Part shown: one piece after another, positions 990 through 41,018 of the stretch
How the letters are laid out: the number at the start of each line of letters is the position of its first letter
Numbering within the stretch: position 1 is the stretch's first letter
NCBI GenBank assembly: GCA_018712645.1
Contig: DVGO01000056.1
Span: 124,001-188,000 of the forward strand
Source: Candidatus Faecousia faecavium
GTDB lineage: Bacteria > Bacillota > Clostridia > Oscillospirales > Oscillospiraceae
Direction of reading: 5' to 3'
DNA: 64,000 nucleotides
Notes under the pieces: model-generated
Databases searched by the model: none
What the model was told of the DNA's origin: nothing
What the model saw: only the letters and a program-made list of their open reading frames with translations
Position numbers and translations under genes: made by a program

Positions 990-1344
990 CTATTTTCTCC
1001 TCTTATCTTTTATAAAGCTATCCAAACATCATTGTATCTTGTACATCATCACCTGTCAAGCACCGCACACGGTCAGCACATGCTCCCTGTCATACATATG
1101 CTCTGCAGCTGCTCCAATGCGCGACTGATAACTGCGTCCTTCTTAGCATCCAACACGGCGGAGATAGCTAGGATATGCTTTTCTGACGGGTTGTCCGTCC
1201 AAATAGGTACACGACATAGCAGGCACCTAAGCTGCTCCGCGTTTACCGTGCACTTACATGAACCGACATGCCATAAACACGCAACGCGTTGGATTTCCAA
1301 GAATATTCTGATGCGATCTGCTGGCAGGAACGCTGACAACACGC

Positions 1345-1989
1345 TCAGATGTCAATGTTCCAAAGTGCTTCCGCCAAAGCAAAATCCTCAGGGTTATCGA
1401 TATCAACAGCCTCTTTGTAGGAAACCTCTTTCACAAACGGCTTGATGCCTATTCTTCTGTGGTATTTTTCAAACACTTTCTTTGTAAAAACATATACCCC
1501 GGAGGTTTCCTGAAAGATTGGTTTCAGATCCTGGGTCCGAGGAAGATTTTCTGCGTCGAAATTCAGCGGTTTCCCATCCTGCCAGAGATAATCCTGCAGC
1601 TTCACTGCGCAGAAGGCGGAATCGTAGTTCCCGGACTTTACAGCTTCGATGCACTGCTTCATGGTACCGACTGTAATATAGGGCGCTGTGGCGTGGGCAT
1701 ATACATAAATATCCGCAGGATGTTCTGACTGAAATGCCTGAAAAATTTGCGTAAAATTGGACGTAGGTAAATCCAGACACCTGGGACGTTTCACGAAATC
1801 CACACCTTCCGGCAGGAAGGGCACAACGGCTTCGTCGCTGCAAAAAACGCAAATTCTGTCTACCAGCGCCGTTTGCTTCAGGTTATCCAGTTCATGCTGC
1901 AGCAAAGGTTTTCCTCCCAGTAACCTTGTGTTTTTCCCTGGACATCTTTCATTTATTAATTTAATTGGCATTACTGCGATGATACTCAT
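1345..1989 (-). CDS. Acylneuraminate cytidylyltransferase family protein (NeuA-like)
   Basis: MSIIAVMPIKLINERCPGKNTRLLGGKPLLQHELDNL.. N-terminal nucleotidyltransferase signature; ORF extends to 2034 but the ATG at 1989 is the better start. Confidence 0.8.
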   Translation of the reverse strand: MSIIAVMPIKLINERCPGKNTRLLGGKPLLQHELDNLKQTALVDRICVFCSDEAVVPFLPEGVDFVKRPRCLDLPTSNFTQIFQAFQSEHPADIYVYAHATAPYITVGTMKQCIEAVKSGNYDSAFCAVKLQDYLWQDGKPLNFDAENLPRTQDLKPIFQETSGVYVFTKKVFEKYHRRIGIKPFVKEVSYKEAVDIDNPEDFALAEALWNIDI

Positions 1990-2092
1990 AACGTTCCCCC
2001 ACAACCGCAAACATATTTTGCCTTTTCCGGACATAATGGAAGCATAACCAATTCTTCATGGTTACTTGCAATTTTGGGTGGCAGAGGGGTAT

Positions 2093-2123
2093 AAAAAAGG
2101 TTTGTACCATATTGGCACAAACC
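2093..2123 (-). terminator. Rho-independent terminator between LCP gene and neuA-like gene
   Basis: Minus-strand GGTTTGTGCCAATATGGTACAAACCTTTTTT hairpin plus T-run. Confidence 0.65.
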
Positions 2124-2359
2124 ATCTATCAAATCTCTCTCGCTTTTTCACTGTCTGCTTGGCACAGGAACATCCAAATCCTAATTGCAGCTTCTATTCA
2201 GGAGCCACAACTCTCACCATTGATATGGAGCTCTTATTTCAATCTTGCATGCCTTTTCAGCGAGCACAATTTTCATTTGACTGCACGGGAAAAGAGCAGG
2301 GAACGTATTTTACAGACCAACGAGAATCTGTCCAGGTTCTCCTGCTCTTTCCGTGCACA

Positions 2360-3379
2360 TTAGTCGGTGACTGTTTTTTCATAAAACAGAGAAAGGACAA
2401 TCTCCTTCACAGATTCTTCATCTGCGTAAAACTCGATATACTCCTCTCCCTGAACCGCTTCTCCCTCTATGGAGACAATGGGATTGACGGAGCAGACCTC
2501 CAAAAGATTACTCAATTCATCCAGTTGGTTTACGGTACAGTCTGATTCAAAGTCATCATTGACTTTCAGAAGTGTGGAACTGAGAAATCCATTGACCTTT
2601 CGGTTTGCTTCCATCAGCTTTTCATAAAAAGCATTCAAATATTGGCGCTGCCGTTCCATCCGGTGCAGGTTGCTGCTGTCTTCCAACTCCCTGCGGGTGC
2701 GGACATAGAGAAGCGCCTGATCACCATGCAGCGTTACTTCTTTGCCTTTTTCCATCTCCGGATCCAGGTCCGTGAAATCATCCAGCATGGTTACAGTGAC
2801 ACCGCCTACCAGGTCATTGATTTTTCCAACGGCATCCATGGTCAGCGTCATGTAATGGTCAATTTTCACGCCGCCTAAAAAGTTGGAAACCGCCTTGACC
2901 GTATTGATGCAGCTGTCAGAGCCACCGCTCCCGTAGGTGTGGGCCAGAGCCAGCTGCCCTACAAAGCTTCCGGTGCTGGAGCCTCCAAAGCCCAATCTGG
3001 GAATCTCTGTCATTGTATCCCGGTTCAGGTGCAGCAAGTCACAAGTCTGGGCATCTTTATCAATGACCACCAGCAGCAAAAAGTCCGACTGCATTTTGTT
3101 GGTATATGCCAGCACCTGTTCCTCCCGTTCAAACTTATCCAGGCCCATAATCAAGACCGTTTCCAGGTTCTCTTTGGGAAGATACACATCACCCGCATAT
3201 TCCACCGCATCCTCCGGCAAGGTCGGCTGGGTTTGCTCTGTAACGGCGGAAACCGTTGTTGTTTCCGGTTCAGTCTCCGGTTCAGACCCACAGGCTGTAA
3301 AAATAAGCATCATAGAAAAAATGCTCAGGGCAAACATTGCCGCCCTGAGCACCTTTTTCTGTAAATTATGTTGTTTCAT
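2360..3379 (-). CDS. LytR-CpsA-Psr (LCP) family protein
   Basis: Lipoprotein-like N-terminus, then VLIMGLDKFEREE.., LLHLNRDTMTEIPRLG.., GGVTVTMLDDFTDLDPEMEKGKEVTLHGDQALLYVRTRRELEDSSNLHRMERQRQYL (LCP core). Confidence 0.9.
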   Translation of the reverse strand: MKQHNLQKKVLRAAMFALSIFSMMLIFTACGSEPETEPETTTVSAVTEQTQPTLPEDAVEYAGDVYLPKENLETVLIMGLDKFEREEQVLAYTNKMQSDFLLLVVIDKDAQTCDLLHLNRDTMTEIPRLGFGGSSTGSFVGQLALAHTYGSGGSDSCINTVKAVSNFLGGVKIDHYMTLTMDAVGKINDLVGGVTVTMLDDFTDLDPEMEKGKEVTLHGDQALLYVRTRRELEDSSNLHRMERQRQYLNAFYEKLMEANRKVNGFLSSTLLKVNDDFESDCTVNQLDELSNLLEVCSVNPIVSIEGEAVQGEEYIEFYADEESVKEIVLSLFYEKTVTD

Positions 3380-3407
3380 AAATTACAAGTTGAAGTGGCA
3401 ATGCGCT

Positions 3408-3938
3408 TTATTTGTTCTCAGTAACAAAAGCGATGGGGCCAACCACATCGAACGTAACCTTGACTTCGCCATTGGCGCTCACTTCTACCTTTTCGGCATC
3501 GACGATAACCCACTCACCGTCAACAAAGACCATAACCATCAGGAAATCATCAGCAGAAATGCCTTCAGCCTTAAAGGTCAGTTCCTTTTCCTCGCCCTCA
3601 GCCAGTTCCTTGTCCAGGGCAACGTAGAACAGATCTCTAACGACCAGATCGGAAGCCTTTACAGTGGTGTTCATAGCCTTCAGGGTGTCTGCCAGAGTGG
3701 GGACAGCCTCTTCCAGGCTCTTGGCGTCGGTAATGACCTTAGCAGCTTCTTCCACAATCTTCTTGACCTCTGCGGGAGCCTTGCTCAGGTCAGCCAAAGC
3801 GGTAACGGTTACGCCAGCTTCCTTAACGGTGGGTGCGCCCTTCTGTTCCACACTGGGAGTGAAGCCTGCTGCGGAAGCAGGAACAGCCAGCATGGCAACA
3901 ACCAGAAGAACGCAAATCAGTTGAATTGCTTTTTTCAT
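3408..3938 (-). CDS. Small secreted protein of unknown function in the EPS operon
   Basis: Signal peptide MKKAIQLICVLLVVAMLAVPASAAG, 176 aa, no recognised anchor. Confidence 0.75.
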   Translation of the reverse strand: MKKAIQLICVLLVVAMLAVPASAAGFTPSVEQKGAPTVKEAGVTVTALADLSKAPAEVKKIVEEAAKVITDAKSLEEAVPTLADTLKAMNTTVKASDLVVRDLFYVALDKELAEGEEKELTFKAEGISADDFLMVMVFVDGEWVIVDAEKVEVSANGEVKVTFDVVGPIAFVTENK

Positions 3939-4010
3939 GTGTATACCTCGCTTTTTATTAAATTTAATTACGCCATATGCTCCGCAATTCGTATAGAGAT
4001 ACAGCGGTAA

Positions 4011-4715
4011 TTACACAAATTCCAAATGGACACCATCTGTGTCCAACTGCCACAGTCGTATATTCTCCATACCTGTGGCAAGCAAACGCTTGGCATGCTC
4101 CGGCAACAAGTCCCAATTGGGCTTTCTCGTTTTCTGATTATGGCAATCTGTTCCAAGAAAGTGAATCTCGCCATTGGCAAGCATATTCAGTGCCTTGCCT
4201 TTGGTTTTCCAATTTCCAAAAAAGGATACATTGCTCTGCATCAGCACACCATAAGCACGCAATCTCGCCCAAAGATCCGGCGACTGCATGGCCATGTAGC
4301 GCTCAATATGCGCCAGCACAATCTGAAGCTGCCACTGATCATTTAGTTCCAGGACATCTCCTATCATGCGATCTGTCCATCGACAAAACGGCATCTCCAA
4401 AAGCAGGAAATTCGTTCCTACGATCCGCAGATGGCGGATATCCTCAATGCCGCAAATCCCTTCAAAATACTGGACCTCAGCGCCCAACCGCACTTTGGGA
4501 AATTCCCGGCACCAGGCTTCCGATAAACGTTTCCAGGCAGCATACCGTCGGCGCAAGAAATCCACCGGACTATTTTCATCTGCATAATAATGCGGCGTCA
4601 ACATCACAGTGTCCACGCCCTGGCGGGTTTCTTCTTGTAAAAGCCAGATACTTTCCTCTACACTTTTGCTCCCATCATCCATGCCGGGCAGAATATGGGT
4701 GTGAAAATCAATCAT
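4011..4715 (-). CDS. CpsB/CapC-type PHP-domain protein-tyrosine phosphatase
   Basis: MIDFHTHILPGMDDGSKSVEES..; LTPHYY; QIVLAHIERY; GTDCHN. Confidence 0.9.
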   Translation of the reverse strand: MIDFHTHILPGMDDGSKSVEESIWLLQEETRQGVDTVMLTPHYYADENSPVDFLRRRYAAWKRLSEAWCREFPKVRLGAEVQYFEGICGIEDIRHLRIVGTNFLLLEMPFCRWTDRMIGDVLELNDQWQLQIVLAHIERYMAMQSPDLWARLRAYGVLMQSNVSFFGNWKTKGKALNMLANGEIHFLGTDCHNQKTRKPNWDLLPEHAKRLLATGMENIRLWQLDTDGVHLEFV

Positions 4716-5461
4716 GTCCCGGCACCACCGGAAGCGTGCTGTTTATAATCCCCGTAGGACTTTCCGTAGTGCTTATACCCCTTTTTCTGGGTGTCGGCAC
4801 CGGTCATAACAAAGCCCAAAATCTTTGCTCCCACAAACCGCAATTGCCGAACGGATTCATCCAGCACGCCACGATCACAGTAATTCTGACGGACAACAAG
4901 AATCATGCCATCCACCAGTTTGGACACCAGAGCAGCATCCGTAACCGCAGAAACAGGTGGTAGGTCTACGATAATCACATCAAAAAAGTCTTTCATCGCG
5001 TCGATGGTTGCCTTCATATTGGCAGATCCAAGTAATTCTGAAGGATTTGGCGGAATATCTCCGGCCGTCGCCACCCACAAGTTGGAGATCAGATCCGTTC
5101 TCTGCAGCACGTCATTACCGCTGCATTGGCCGACCAAAAGATTGGAAATACCCGGTCTCGTTTTCACGCGAAGTCTCTTCGCCAATGTGGGAAGACGCAT
5201 ATCTGCTTCAATCAGCAACACCTTACCGCCGCTTTGGGCCATGGTGTATGCAATATTTACCGATGTAGTGCTTTTTCCTTCCCCTTTCAAGGAACTGGTA
5301 ACACCAATTACCCGGCATCCGGACTCCATCGGCAAACTGAACTCCAGATTGGTACGCAGCAGCTTATAAGCTTCCGCTGCTGCAAAACTCAAGCTATTAC
5401 CCAAAGTCTTTCTGGATTCTTCTGGTGTCATATTATCCCGGTATTTATTTTTGTTTCTCAT
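4712..5461 (-). CDS. CpsD/CapB-type tyrosine-protein kinase (BY-kinase)
   Basis: GVTSSLKGEGKSTTSVNIAYTMAQSGGKVLLIEADMRLPTLAKRL Walker motifs. Confidence 0.9.
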   Translation of the reverse strand: MRNKNKYRDNMTPEESRKTLGNSLSFAAAEAYKLLRTNLEFSLPMESGCRVIGVTSSLKGEGKSTTSVNIAYTMAQSGGKVLLIEADMRLPTLAKRLRVKTRPGISNLLVGQCSGNDVLQRTDLISNLWVATAGDIPPNPSELLGSANMKATIDAMKDFFDVIIVDLPPVSAVTDAALVSKLVDGMILVVRQNYCDRGVLDESVRQLRFVGAKILGFVMTGADTQKKGYKHYGKSYGDYKQHASGGAGT

Positions 5462-5465
5462 TGCT

Positions 5466-6248
5466 TTACCTCACCTTTTTGGCTCGCTGTTCCGCACTTC
5501 GGTAATATTCATTGGAAGAGTGGTTGGACAGCAAATCCGGGATAACCGCCAAAACAGGAATTTCGTAGGTCTGAACCAAATAGTCCGAGTCATGAATCAG
5601 GTCATCCATCAGTTCCAGAACAACAACCAGTCCGCAGCTTACCACAAAGCCCAGCATAAATCCGATCAATGTACTCTTCGTCAGGCTGGGGGATGCCTTT
5701 TTAACCGGCTCCACAGCATAGTCCACAATTCGGGCAGAACTGCCCTCGACAATAGACGCAATCTTTTCAGGAAGCACCTGTGCAATGGTATTGGCCAGCA
5801 ATTCTGCTTCCTTTGGATCGGGGCTGGTCACAGTGATTGAAAATATTTCCGTTCCATTTACAGACTCAGCCGAAATCATTTCCCGAAGCTGCTCATACGT
5901 ATAGGCGACTCCAGTTTTCTCCACAACATCATTTAAAGTTGTTCTGGTATTCAGAATAACAATGTACGTCTCCACCAAGCTCTGGGCTGCGCTCAGTTCC
6001 GCCGCGCTGATACTCAACTTTGTGCTCCCCACAGAAATGTCGTTGCTGTTAACATACATTAGGGCTTCCGCTTCATACAGCGGTGTTTTAAATATCGCTG
6101 TGAATCCCAAAGCACAGCCAGCACAAACGACAGACGCTAAAACAATTGCCCAAGCTCTGCGCCACAACGCCTGCGCCATTTGCAGCAGATCAATCTCTAC
6201 TTCCTCATTACTTGTCATGATGATTTTTTCCTCTTCCTGATACTTCAT
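5466..6248 (-). CDS. Wzz/CpsC-type chain-length determinant protein
   Basis: EIDLLQMAQALWRRAWAIVLASVVCAGCALGFTAIFKTPLYEAEA.. two-TM Wzz architecture. Confidence 0.88.
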   Translation of the reverse strand: MKYQEEEKIIMTSNEEVEIDLLQMAQALWRRAWAIVLASVVCAGCALGFTAIFKTPLYEAEALMYVNSNDISVGSTKLSISAAELSAAQSLVETYIVILNTRTTLNDVVEKTGVAYTYEQLREMISAESVNGTEIFSITVTSPDPKEAELLANTIAQVLPEKIASIVEGSSARIVDYAVEPVKKASPSLTKSTLIGFMLGFVVSCGLVVVLELMDDLIHDSDYLVQTYEIPVLAVIPDLLSNHSSNEYYRSAEQRAKKVR

Positions 6249-34005: not shown

Positions 34006-34032
34006 AGACCCGAAGAATCAAGCTTCGGGTCT
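34006..34032 (-). terminator. Ancestral tRNA-Thr terminator, now separated from the gene by the element
   Basis: AGACCCGAAG aatcaag CTTCGGGTCT beside the tRNA 3'-end repeat. Confidence 0.65.
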
Positions 34033-34079
34033 TTTGGAGCTGCTAGCCAGATTTGAACTGGCGACCTCATCCTTACCAA
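34032..34079 (-). repeat. Distal att repeat (48-bp duplicate of tRNA-Thr 3' end)
   Basis: TTTTGGAGCTGCTAGCCAGATTTGAACTGGCGACCTCATCCTTACCAA identical to 40940-40987. Confidence 0.95.
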
Positions 34080-34324
34080 AACAATATAGCCTGTTGTGTT
34101 CTAACTTTTCTTGTTGTATAATCCTGTATTATAAAAGGTTTTATATTTGTTTTCAAAACTTTTTGCTGTGAAATGCTGTTGCCTGTTGTAGCTTGTTGTG
34201 TGGTGGTTTCTGTTGTAGGTAGTGGTTTTGTAGTGGTTTTTTAAGGGTATGAGAAAAGCCGCCCAGCAAACGCCAGACGGCTTCCCTAAAGGAGAAAATC
34301 TGCACCAAATGTGCAAAGGAAGGA

Positions 34325-35969: not shown

Positions 35970-36338
35970 TCAAAATTTGTCAGCGTTCTGGGCTGCTTCC
36001 AAAGCATCCAGACGGGTTAGAATGTTGGCGGCTTCGATGTAACGCAAGCCGTGGCGTAACAGGCTGTCAGCGGCTGATACTCGCACCGTGGCGGCTGTTT
36101 CTGTGCTGTCCAGCACCTCACACAGGGTATCAACTGCCAGCGTTAGCCGGGCTGATATGGCATCGCACGCCTCCGACAGAACGGCGGCTTTTGCCTTTTC
36201 GTACTGCTCCCGGAAGGCATCGTCATTCAGCCGATTTCTGATCGTTGCTTCCGACACATCGGCAATTTTGGCAGCTTTTCGCACACTTCCTGCTGCAAGC
36301 AATGCACCCAGAATTTTCTCGTCGTTCAGTTTCTGCAA
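35970..36338 (-). CDS. HTH protein of phage/terminase-small-subunit-like type
   Basis: MQKLNDEKILGALLAAGSVRKAAKIADVSEATIRNRLNDDAFREQYEKAKAAVL. Confidence 0.65.
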   Translation of the reverse strand: MQKLNDEKILGALLAAGSVRKAAKIADVSEATIRNRLNDDAFREQYEKAKAAVLSEACDAISARLTLAVDTLCEVLDSTETAATVRVSAADSLLRHGLRYIEAANILTRLDALEAAQNADKF

Positions 36339-36822: not shown

Positions 36823-36847
36823 TATTTCACCTTCTTTCGTGGAATTG

Positions 36848-37004
36848 GTACAGGTAGTACAGAGAAAACGCCATTTTGAAAAACTTTCCTGTGTACCACT
36901 ATGTATATATCTTTCTTTTTTTGGGGTTTAGGGGAATGTACTGTACTAACCGTACTAAAACCTAAAAACACATTGATATTAAAGGCTTTTTTGTAGTACA
37001 GTAC
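36848..37004. repeat. GTAC-iterated non-coding region, candidate replication origin of the element
   Basis: 8 GTAC tetranucleotides in 157 bp and a perfect 12-bp inverted repeat TGTACTGTACTA/TAGTACAGTACA (36937-36948 and 36994-37005) flanking AT-rich DNA, adjacent to the primase gene. Confidence 0.5.
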
Positions 37005-37022
37005 ACCCCTTTTCTGCTGTCA

Positions 37023-38495
37023 TTATGCTGTGCTTTTCTGTGCTATCTTGAGATCGTTAGCCCAATTATACCGGGGTAACACTCTTACACGCTGCTGCCG
37101 CCCTGCCATCATCCTTCTTTCTGCGGTGATACCGATGCGGTCAAGTGCCTTTCCGATCTGCTCGACAGAGTATGTACGCAAGCATTCGTGTTCCAGCTTA
37201 AAATCCGTAACCGTGGAATATGCCCATACAAAGGTTGAGCCGTCCTTGTTTGCCTTGCTGATAATATCCTCGATTTCCGGTTGAGCCTTCAGCGGCTTTT
37301 CGTGTTCCGTGTTCCTTCGTGCCAGCTCGTCCTGCTCCTGCCGTGTCAGCCGGAAGCCTTGCAGATTTCCAGCCGCCTGTGCTTCAATCTGTTTCCAAAG
37401 CTGAAGGGCATCCAGAGCCGCCAGAGCTTCCAAATCAATACCCTTTACAGGGACAGTCCAAAAACGTCGTGATCCTGTTGGGTCTATGAGAAATTGCGTT
37501 GTGTTACAGGTTGCGATTAAAGATGTACGGCGGCACAGGGTCTGGTCTGTCCGTCCATAGGGAAGCCGGTATTCGTCAATCTCTGCCGTGATAAATGCCT
37601 TCAGCCGTTCCAGATCGCTGCGAAGCGTGGTTTCGATTTCGCCCCATTCACAAATCCAGCAGCTAGTGCAGCGGCGAATTGTGTCTTTGTCCCGGCTGTC
37701 CAGATACTGACCTAGCTTGACTAGCTCCGGTAACACTCCGATTTTCCGTACAAAGCTGGTTTTGCCGATACCCTGTTTTCCTTGCAGGACTAGCAGCCCA
37801 TCAGCTCCGAAGGGGTGTTTCGTGTCGTTGTGTGCCATACTGTAGCATTGCCAGAGCCATTTATGCAGCAGGGCTTTGGATAGCTCGTCATCCTCGATAC
37901 AGAGGATTTTATAAAGCTGCTCCACACGGTCTACACCGTCCCACGCTGGGGCATTCTTCAGCATAACCTCTACAGGGTTATACCGATGTTTGCCAGCCAG
38001 AACGCCCAGCAGGTCAGCCACAAGCCCCCTGTCGCATTGGTATTTCCGTTTTAGCTGATCGTGGACAATAATGTGCAGATCGCTTTTGACGGTTTCCGGA
38101 TTAAAACTAGGGTCTACGCCGTCCACCTCGACAGAATGGGAAATACAGTTATAAGCTATTTCGATGGCATTGTCATCCAGCCACATTTCCAGCTTATCAA
38201 CGGTCAGCTGTGGCTTCGTCTGTCGCTCTGGTTTGGCTTTTTCTTCTGGTATATCCTCTGCCTCCGGTTCATCTACAAGGCTTTCTCCACGCTCTACAAT
38301 GCTTCTGGCGGCATCCGCTAGCACATTAAGAGGTATTCCGTCTTGAAGATGTTTTTGTATTTGTGCCGTGTCCATTCCGTTTAGAATTAAAAAATCCAAA
38401 TCGGACAGCGGCTGCTCTGTTTGTGTTGCCTCCAATTCCTGACCGCCTTGCCGTCCTCCTACCGACAGGGCTGTGCGGTGCAGGGTTTCTGTCAT
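37023..38495 (-). CDS. VirE/VapE-family primase-helicase-like ATPase
   Basis: GADGLLVLQGKQGIGKTSFVRKIGVLP; WICEWGEIETTLRSDLERLKAFITAEIDEYRLPYGRTDQTLCRRTSLIATCNTTQFLIDPTGSRRFWTVPV. Confidence 0.9.
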   Translation of the reverse strand: MTETLHRTALSVGGRQGGQELEATQTEQPLSDLDFLILNGMDTAQIQKHLQDGIPLNVLADAARSIVERGESLVDEPEAEDIPEEKAKPERQTKPQLTVDKLEMWLDDNAIEIAYNCISHSVEVDGVDPSFNPETVKSDLHIIVHDQLKRKYQCDRGLVADLLGVLAGKHRYNPVEVMLKNAPAWDGVDRVEQLYKILCIEDDELSKALLHKWLWQCYSMAHNDTKHPFGADGLLVLQGKQGIGKTSFVRKIGVLPELVKLGQYLDSRDKDTIRRCTSCWICEWGEIETTLRSDLERLKAFITAEIDEYRLPYGRTDQTLCRRTSLIATCNTTQFLIDPTGSRRFWTVPVKGIDLEALAALDALQLWKQIEAQAAGNLQGFRLTRQEQDELARRNTEHEKPLKAQPEIEDIISKANKDGSTFVWAYSTVTDFKLEHECLRTYSVEQIGKALDRIGITAERRMMAGRQQRVRVLPRYNWANDLKIAQKSTA

Positions 38496-38677
38496 TGGGC
38501 AGCACCTCCGTGTGTGATCTGCTCCAATAGTGCAGGAATGTGAATATAGTAGGTTGTTCCGCTGCGGATATGGGGAATAGTGCCTTCCTTGCATCCCTTA
38601 CGCAGGAAATACTGGGATAGCCCGGTTGTCCTGCTTGCTAGTGCAATCTTTTGATATGGGGTTGTATTGGTCTGCAT
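38492..38677 (-). CDS. Excisionase-like/MerR-like HTH protein
   Basis: 61 aa YQKIALASRTTGLSQYFLRKGCKEGTIPHIRSGTTYYIHIPALLEQI. Confidence 0.7.
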   Translation of the reverse strand: MQTNTTPYQKIALASRTTGLSQYFLRKGCKEGTIPHIRSGTTYYIHIPALLEQITHGGAAQ

Positions 38678-38679
38678 TG

Positions 38680-38868
38680 TTACATCTCCTTTCTTGCTTC
38701 GACCATTCTGTCAATCGTCCGGAAGATATGTTCCTTCTGATCGTTGGGCAGCTCTCTCCGGAGCTTCCGGGACAGGTTGCCATCATTCACGCCTAACGCC
38801 TCAGCCAATTCCCACAGCTTGAAGCCGTGAACTGCTACGGCATTTCGTATATCTTGATTTGCCTTCAC
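38680..38868 (-). CDS. Small HTH protein
   Basis: 62 aa VHGFKLWELAEALGVNDGNLSRKLRRELP. Confidence 0.65.
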   Translation of the reverse strand: MKANQDIRNAVAVHGFKLWELAEALGVNDGNLSRKLRRELPNDQKEHIFRTIDRMVEARKEM

Positions 38869-38918
38869 TTTTTTTCACCTCTTTTCAATTTTGGTGTTGA
38901 TTTTTGTTGCTGTTTTTG

Positions 38919-38935
38919 TTACAATGTCATTGTAA
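38919..38935. promoter_or_regulatory. Palindromic operator candidate between divergent transcripts
   Basis: TTACAATG T CATTGTAA perfect 8+1+8 palindrome. Confidence 0.6.
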
Positions 38936-38996
38936 GGTAACACTTTAGGAAAGTCAATACCCGGTAACATACTGTAAACAAAGGAGAAAAAGCATT

Positions 38997-39632
38997 ATGG
39001 AATGTAACACAATCGGAGAAAGAATTGCACACTTGCGGAAGGTAAAGGGGATTTCGCAGGGGGATTTAGCAAAAGCAATGTATGTCAAGCGTGAAGTGGT
39101 AACGCATTGGGAAGTCGGAGATCGTGACCTTAAAACAGAATACACTATCAAACTTGCGGATTATTTTGGAGTAACCTGTGATTATCTGCTCCGAGGCATA
39201 CCATCCGAAAATGTGGATGTAGCTAAAGCAACAGGGCTAAATAATAAGTCCATTGAAAATATCAAGATGCTAGCAAGGCTTTCCACGGAATGCAATCATC
39301 CTAATTTAGGGATTGCCTTAAATAATTTTATCGGCAGCGTTCATTTTGTGTATTTTCTTTCGCAATATATGAATTATCGGAATAAAACAGGGCAACTTGC
39401 ATATCGCCTGGAAGCGTTCAAAGAATGGCTAATCCAGCACGAAGCGAAGCCTCCAAGGGATCTGCTGAAGTATGCTGCTGAAGTAAAACTTGAAAATCCG
39501 ACATCCCCAGCAGCAGATGTAATGCGTTGCGATGCAGAACTTAAATTTGCTTTATTCTGTTTGCATAACAGCATAGATAGCTATGTGGAGGACATAAGAG
39601 AGGAGCTGCTAGAAAATGGCATCAATCCGTGA
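38997..39632 (+). CDS. XRE-family repressor
   Basis: MECNTIGERIAHLRKVKGISQGDLAKAMYVKREVVTHWEVGDRDL. Confidence 0.9.
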   Translation: MECNTIGERIAHLRKVKGISQGDLAKAMYVKREVVTHWEVGDRDLKTEYTIKLADYFGVTCDYLLRGIPSENVDVAKATGLNNKSIENIKMLARLSTECNHPNLGIALNNFIGSVHFVYFLSQYMNYRNKTGQLAYRLEAFKEWLIQHEAKPPRDLLKYAAEVKLENPTSPAADVMRCDAELKFALFCLHNSIDSYVEDIREELLENGINP

Positions 39633-40806
39633 AATGGAAACAAAGACAGGCATCTGCTACGAAGTAGGTGTTAGCCGTGGCAGAGGTAAAAGCAAAGTAT
39701 ACCGCCGCTTTTATCCGGAAGCAGGATGGAGTAAAAGAACCATCGACAGGGAGCTAAACAAATTCGTCCGTGATCTTGAAAAAGAGGTTGAAGCCGGGCA
39801 GACCGTTTCCAGAGAAGAACGCAAAGAAAAAGAGCTTGAAGCAATGCGTGAAGCCGCAAAGGTTCAAACTCTAAAGCAATATGGCGAAAAGGTCTTTATG
39901 CCTACCAAAAAGGTAACGATCAGCGAAAACACACGAAGCAGTTTTCAAGGCTGTCTGGACAGGCGTATTTATCCTGCATTGGGTGATCTGCGGCTTCCGG
40001 ATATTACATCGGCTAATATTTCCGCTTTCCTTCTGTCCGTACAGGCTGAAGGCAAGAGCCACGGCACAGTTATCAAGTATTACACCATCTTAAAGAGCCT
40101 TTTCAAAATGGCATATATGAACGATGAAATACCACGCAATCCGATGGACAAAGTAGAACGCCCAAAGCCTCGCAAGGATGAAGCCAGAAAAATGGAGGTT
40201 GAAGCCTATACAGAGGAAGAAACGGCATATATTCTGGAATGCCTAGAAAAAGAGCCGTTAAAGTGGCGTGTCCTTATGGAGCTTATGATCGACACAGGTA
40301 TTCGCCGGGGAGAATGCTGCGGCTTGAAATGGTCAAATGTGGATTTCCAAAGCAACACTATCACCATAGAGCATAACCTGTGCTATACTCCGGAAAAAGG
40401 TGTATATCTGGACACTCCCTAAAACGGCAAGGTTCGCACCATCAATGTAGCTCCGGAAGTTATGGCTCTGCTGAAGCAGCTCCGGGCAAATGAAGGCGTG
40501 ATAAAATTCAGCCCTTATGTATTCACACAGGACGGTACAGCAGAGCCGATGCATCCCCAAAGCCCCACACGGTATATGCAGAAATTCTCTGCCCGGTATG
40601 GCATACAGGAGCTGCACCCCCACAAACTGCGGCACAGCTTCGCCAGCATCGCAATCACAAACGGTGCAGATATTGCCAGCGTGTCGGAAATTCTGGGACA
40701 CTCCGACAAAGCCGTCACTTTGAGAATGTACACCCACGCCGATCAAGCTAGTATGACTAGGGCAAGTAATATCTTCCGTGAAGCCATCAAACGGAAACAG
40801 GCATAA
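39616..40806 (+). pseudogene. Tyrosine recombinase/integrase interrupted by in-frame TAA (40420-40422)
   Basis: 39616-40422 and 40462-40806 are in the same frame; ..GVYLDTP-stop-NGKVRTINVAPE..; catalytic TGIRRGE before the stop, HKLRHSFAS / LGHSDKAVTLRMYTH after it. Confidence 0.9.
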
Positions 40807-40837: not shown

Positions 40838-40908
40838 TCAATTTTTCGGTCTATGTAGTGGTTTTTGTAGTGGTTTTTTTGGCTGGCAAGTTTTCCGCAA
40901 AAAAGCAA

Positions 40909-40939
40909 AAGCCCCAAAACCGTTGTGGTTCTAGGGCTT
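40909..40939 (-). terminator. Element-supplied terminator for tRNA-Thr
   Basis: AAGCCCTAGAACC acaac GGTTTTGGGGCTT on the minus strand directly after the tRNA CCA. Confidence 0.65.

Positions 40940-41018
<79 letters not shown>

Follow-up and report, generated by a model that had tools for sequence, protein, structure and literature searches.

What is the role of the GTAC repeats that lie beside a vapE gene in the 64-kb stretch of DNA analysed here (the window)? The preliminary description proposed that they form the replication origin of the mobile element that carries them, and we consider this highly probable: the GTAC-iteron region is best read as the island's own origin, part of a predicted rep-ori module of the PICI type. 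The design is a known one, and comparison of sequences indicates that its repeat word changes between relatives together with the DNA-binding tail of VapE.

The array occupies the 200-bp gap (36823-37022) between the stop codon of vapE (37023, minus strand) and the ORF next to it on the left (36822). GTAC occurs in it at 36848, 36857, 36893, 36938, 36943, 36952, 36996 and 37001. Dinucleotide shuffles of the gap contain 1.32 copies on average and 6 at most, and none of 20,000 reaches 8. Within the 64-kb window, which is the scope of these chance tests, the next-best cluster has 4 copies per 158 bp, and GTAC is the most clustered tetramer, homopolymers TTTT and AAAA aside. The eight copies first noted in 36848-37005 are thus the densest GTAC cluster of the window, and the perfect 12-bp inverted pair described with them (36937-36948 and 36994-37005) is present. 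Read on the vapE strand, the full repeat unit is longer than GTAC, namely [A/G]GTACA, with copies in both orientations. The parts of the region are as follows.

36823-37022, no strand: predicted intergenic replication origin with iteron array, from the shuffle test and the arrays in relatives
36847-36861, plus strand: distal iteron pair GGTACA / AGTACA, starts 36847 and 36856, 9 bp apart, opposed to the 36937-36956 set
36892-36897, minus strand: single iteron, GGTACA on the minus strand, from sequence
36937-36956, minus strand: iteron triplet TGTACT / TGTACT / CGTACT (plus-strand reading), starts 36937, 36942 and 36951, spacing 5 and 9 bp
36995-37005, plus strand: gene-proximal iteron pair AGTACAGTACA, starts 36995 and 37000, 5 bp apart, inverted relative to 36937-36947
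36956-36994, no strand: AT-rich segment 1, 77% AT, candidate melting region between inverted iteron pairs
36862-36936, no strand: AT-rich segment 2, about 65% AT, from the central iterons to the distal inverted pair, alternative melting region

The vapE stop codon is 18 bp away from the end of the closest iteron. The outer iteron pairs are opposed to the central copies, and the opposing sets enclose two AT-rich gaps, 36956-36994 (77% AT) and 36897-36936 (68% AT), next to a vapE gene that is 49% AT. The AT-rich DNA that the preliminary description saw between the perfect inverted pair is there, at 36956-36994, but the melting region need not lie between that pair. The 4.5-kb locus around the array contains no DnaA box (TTATNCACA), and Rfam gave no match at the predicted origin. 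Four CTAG tetramers, which are rare in the window, cluster inside vapE (37663-37790).

The gene next to the array encodes the putative initiator.

37023-38495, minus strand: vapE, initiator helicase of self-loading type with a C-terminal winged helix, predicted to bind iterons (PF05272, 5.8e-45)

VapE is an intact protein of 490 aa without an internal stop. In its AlphaFold2 model (mean pLDDT 89.6), an AAA+ core is followed by a winged helix at the C-terminus (residues about 405-476), built from helices 405-417, 429-435 and 444-453 and strands 422-427, 459-463 and 466-476. The best match both by sequence (1.9e-24) and by fold (4.5e-20) is 7pds, the structure with dsDNA of PriRep1, a SaPI Rep protein. 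No primase domain was matched in the window VapE. The array does lie 3' of vapE, as first described, but the gene called a primase there encodes a helicase and putative initiator. We predict that the C-terminal winged helix of VapE reads the iterons.

Both features belong to a 6.9-kb island bounded by a 53-bp direct repeat of the 3' end of a tRNA-Thr gene.

34027-34079, no strand: attL, 53-bp direct repeat of the tRNA-Thr 3' end
35970-36338, minus strand: terminase small subunit-like (terS-like) gene downstream of the predicted origin (phrog_2538, 1.5e-6, moderate support)
38492-38677, minus strand: small gene in excisionase position, by position, with an ATGA overlap with vapE
38680-38868, minus strand: small HTH regulator, first gene of the leftward operon (phrog_17740, 1.2e-7)
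38997-39632, plus strand: phage-type HTH repressor, divergent from the operon (PF01381, 2e-9; phrog_8, 3.1e-15)
39616-40806, plus strand: tyrosine integrase gene with a TAA codon at 40420-40422
40935-40987, no strand: attR, in the tRNA-Thr gene at 40943-41018

Judged by its genes, this order is that of PICIs and SaPIs, and the element resembles a PICI. Named relatives indicate that its host is probably a member of the order Oscillospirales. It has an integrase with a unique att site, a divergent repressor and a rep gene, and among the island proteins scanned there is no match to phage structural or packaging proteins of the capsid, portal or large terminase (terL) type. A packaging or interference gene, found in some PICIs, is represented by the terS-like gene at 35970-36338, one of several small leftward genes past the array (36822-34325); terS-like homologues are similarly placed in three relatives of the element (L108, L042 and L036; L numbers denote the VapE relatives described below). 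The product of 38492-38677 matched no family; translation of DNA upstream of vapE in L029 gives a stretch that is 38.7% identical to it (E 1.1e-5). L042 contains, at 1289-5620, a minimal island about 4.5 kb long whose genes are arranged almost as in the window island: int, HTH, vapE, iterons, a coiled-coil ORF, a terS-like gene and a protein of about 190 aa. Motifs of the form GTAGTGGTTTT / TTGTTGT are repeated just inside both att sites (34180-34245 and 40855-40880) and are likely, by their sequence and position, to be arm-type binding sites of the integrase. Few clusters in the window are as strong as that of TTGT/TGTT near 34092.

The integrase gene raises the question of whether the origin still works. 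Its nonsense codon suggests that the island may be decaying, and the array itself, about 160 bp with 8 copies, two of them GGTACA instead of AGTACA, is shorter and less regular than most arrays in relatives. Nor was a close copy of the island found among 100 other genomes of the genus, where VapE had no match at E <= 1e-20. However, VapE is intact and several iterons are perfect; the catalytic half of the integrase past the in-frame TAA stays in the same frame (268 + 114 aa), so that the stop may leave the island unable to move by itself or may be an error of the draft sequence, and an integrase can be supplied in trans. We regard it as unlikely that the region was the island's origin and no longer works. 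This possibility overlaps with our main reading, since even a decayed region would once have been an origin.

The predicted island origin has published counterparts. In PICIs the origin directly follows rep and has AT-rich DNA between its two sets of iterons, and the Pri-Rep-ori segments of SaPIbov1, SaPI1 and EfCIV583 support the replication of plasmids (PMC6092414). The SaPI Rep protein recognises its downstream iterons through a C-terminal domain (PMC7581432). The rep-ori module of SaPIs and Gram-positive PICIs, as in these three elements, resembles that of the window in its Rep/VapE-type AAA+ initiator with a C-terminal DNA-binding domain, its ori directly 3' of rep, its iterons around AT-rich DNA, a nearby terS and the order int, divergent repressor, rep, ori (PMC6092414, PMC7581432). 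The window array has the features of a PICI-type origin: it is immediately 3' of the putative initiator gene, its inverted iteron pairs surround DNA of 68-77% AT, and the gene's product is a helicase related to SaPI Rep, with a C-terminal winged helix. The window differs from SaPIs in its helicase-only VapE, with no primase domain matched, in its size of 6.9 kb, in its gut-type clostridial host, and in its compact array of AGTACA iterons; the comparison covers layout and initiator. Induction by, and packaging in, a helper phage are also features of PICIs, which the window island may share.

Gram-negative PICIs of the EcCICFT073 type likewise have, 3' of the initiator, an AT-rich region with a set of iterons on either side, and their rep-ori replicates a plasmid (PMC6092414). 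They are transcribed in one direction only (PMC6092414), unlike the window island; the comparison with them covers the layout. In SCCmec, Cch2 uses its C-terminal domain to bind short iterons (AAGTG) that lie immediately 3' of the cch2 gene (PMC7581432), and the putative origin of the pattern-2 type resembles the one predicted here, with iterons just 3' of a helicase gene. It differs in having three iterons in a 23-bp direct repeat, a D5-type helicase and a separate polymerase/primase. The PICMI, minimalist satellites of Vibrionaceae of about 6 kb, are comparable as very small integrase-bearing satellites with few genes (PMC10803314), but have a core of DUF3987/DUF5906 primase and AlpA, integrate next to fis, and are described with no mention of iterons (PMC10803314). 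A literature search, whose reach did not extend to the key SaPI origin papers, found no paper that combines VapE and iterons. The RepA_N origin of the Vibrio PLE type (PMC7145576) was set aside because its initiator belongs to a different family.

If the array is an origin read by VapE, arrays should recur downstream of vapE homologues, as the preliminary description suggested checking. Single-sequence VapE scans recovered no relative; alignment-based scans did, and those drawn from whole genomes, GTDB contigs and viral contigs were dereplicated to 83. A repeated 6-mer, significant against shuffles, is present in the 400 bp 3' of vapE in 60 of the 83, though the words differ. Control segments rarely contain arrays: 2/79 at 500-900 bp and 1/67 at 1000-1400 bp 3' of vapE, 1/83 and 5/80 inside vapE, and 4/56 5' of the ORF. 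The remaining 23 relatives have no significant array in the same test, including some that are at least 40% identical. Some of these failures reflect short or degenerate arrays, and two of the failing relatives, L029 and L018, have visible repeats. The plasmids pTM2 and pAL20115c, which have divergent VapE proteins, contain no detectable array, so the association of vapE with an array is not universal.

The strong arrays also share a geometry. Spacing is mostly 8-9 bp. Of 53 strong arrays, 26 have a core in which a pair of direct copies and a pair of inverted copies stand opposite each other on the two sides of an AT-rich gap, compared with 4.0 +/- 1.8 after shuffling of orientations. In relatives, the gap between facing iteron pairs has a median length of 100 bp and a mean AT content of 77%. 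GTAC arrays of 7-16 copies lie 3' of vapE in seven sampled relatives (L015, L024, L025, L026, L044, L112 and L121), so the word is not confined to this element; other relatives use other words, among them GTTAAC (L113), GTGACA (L030), GTCAACC (L108), CGTAAC (L050) and GTAGACG (L016), with further words elsewhere.

The same arrangement occurs in pPSEST02 (L190, NC_019938.1), a natural circular plasmid of Stutzerimonas stutzeri of 9.9 kb, in which no replication gene other than vapE is recognisable; directly 3' of vapE lie 12 copies of the iteron TGGTGG, arranged as inverted pairs. It shares with the window a vapE gene followed by inverted iteron pairs, and has AlpA and TerS genes, but it differs in its word, in being an autonomous plasmid, and in a VapE that is about 28% identical. 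Its gene set (AlpA, VapE, TerS) is satellite-like, and it is possibly a phage satellite maintained as a plasmid.

These comparisons bear on two other uses of the repeats. The array sits upstream of the gene cluster 36822-34325, and palindromic GTAC words would suit dimeric repressors, so the repeats could be a transcriptional operator through which the island's repressor or regulator controls the leftward genes beyond 36822. However, GTAC is absent from 37752-40038 and hence from the divergent regulatory region (38869-38996), where the element's repressor would act. A pattern scan of 36823-37022 found no leftward sigma-70-type promoter, its only match reading rightwards, towards vapE, and in L016 and L026 the array comes, by eye, after a terminator-like hairpin 3' of vapE. 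Arrays also persist across plasmids, phages and relaxase-bearing elements with differing gene neighbours. Alternatively, since the terS-like gene is 0.5 kb away and TerS-like HTH proteins recur in L108, L042 and L036, the repeats could be a packaging site (pac/cos-type) or TerS recognition site, but equivalent arrays also adjoin vapE where the element carries a relaxase-like gene or is a plasmid.

The repeat word itself provides a further test of these readings. The winged helices closest to that of the window (L025, L015 and L024; 62-65% identical) belong to relatives that carry its AGTACA word despite helicase-domain identities of only 39-47%. Conversely, where the helicase is closer (L113, 77% over a partial domain; L108, 62%; L029, 59%), the winged helix is 47-50% identical and the word is a different one. 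An exception is L121, whose helicase is 62% and winged helix 38% identical, yet which has a GTAC word with a different flank. Among pairs with at least 70% helicase identity, words are more similar where the winged helices are (rho 0.31; 1/1000 permutations), whereas helicase identity shows no such relation to the words (rho -0.05). Overall, word and winged helix correlate weakly (partial rho 0.125; 2/500 permutations); words that switch fast would be expected to give such a value, but it is not strong on its own. A word that follows the winged helix fits a VapE-binding site and is unexpected for a regulator's operator or a packaging site. Taken together with the evidence above, we judge an operator to be very unlikely and a packaging site extremely unlikely, and an iteron origin of the element's own, as first proposed, is the best-supported reading of the recurring arrays, their spacing and inverted-pair geometry, and the tracking of the word with the VapE C-terminal domain.

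Helicase pairs that are 90-96% identical, even neighbours on one contig, have unrelated words. On CANQUQ010000020.1, three vapE elements (L070, L075 and L078) lie about 13 kb apart, with helicase domains 80-96% identical and the words GGTGAAC, GTGACA and GTCAACC; two of them have, by eye, MobC-like or relaxase-like ORFs. Words of co-resident pairs are no more divergent than those of non-resident pairs (17 vs 178 pairs), which gives no support to active selection against shared words.

By analogy with the SaPI/PICI rep-ori module, the island origin would work as follows. Once the repressor is lifted, VapE would be made, and its C-terminal winged helix would bind the iterons on either side of AT-rich DNA. 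AAA+ hexamers would then assemble on the iterons and melt the DNA, loading themselves onto it as helicases. The excised circle would be copied by a host or helper-phage polymerase with an external primase.

For a clostridial host of gut type, the locus would provide a predicted minimal vapE-ori replicon of about 1.7 kb, and the dozens of vapE-iteron pairs make origin recognition by satellite initiators, and its switching, testable. We tentatively propose, as a real possibility, that the VapE family, here comprising satellite-like islands, phages, elements with relaxase-like genes and small plasmids, combines a nearly constant helicase with a winged helix and an iteron word that diversify together and fast, forming a switchable specificity code of rep and ori. 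If this is true, the code would let related replicons coexist without cross-initiation, and the GTAC origin of the window would be one readout of it.
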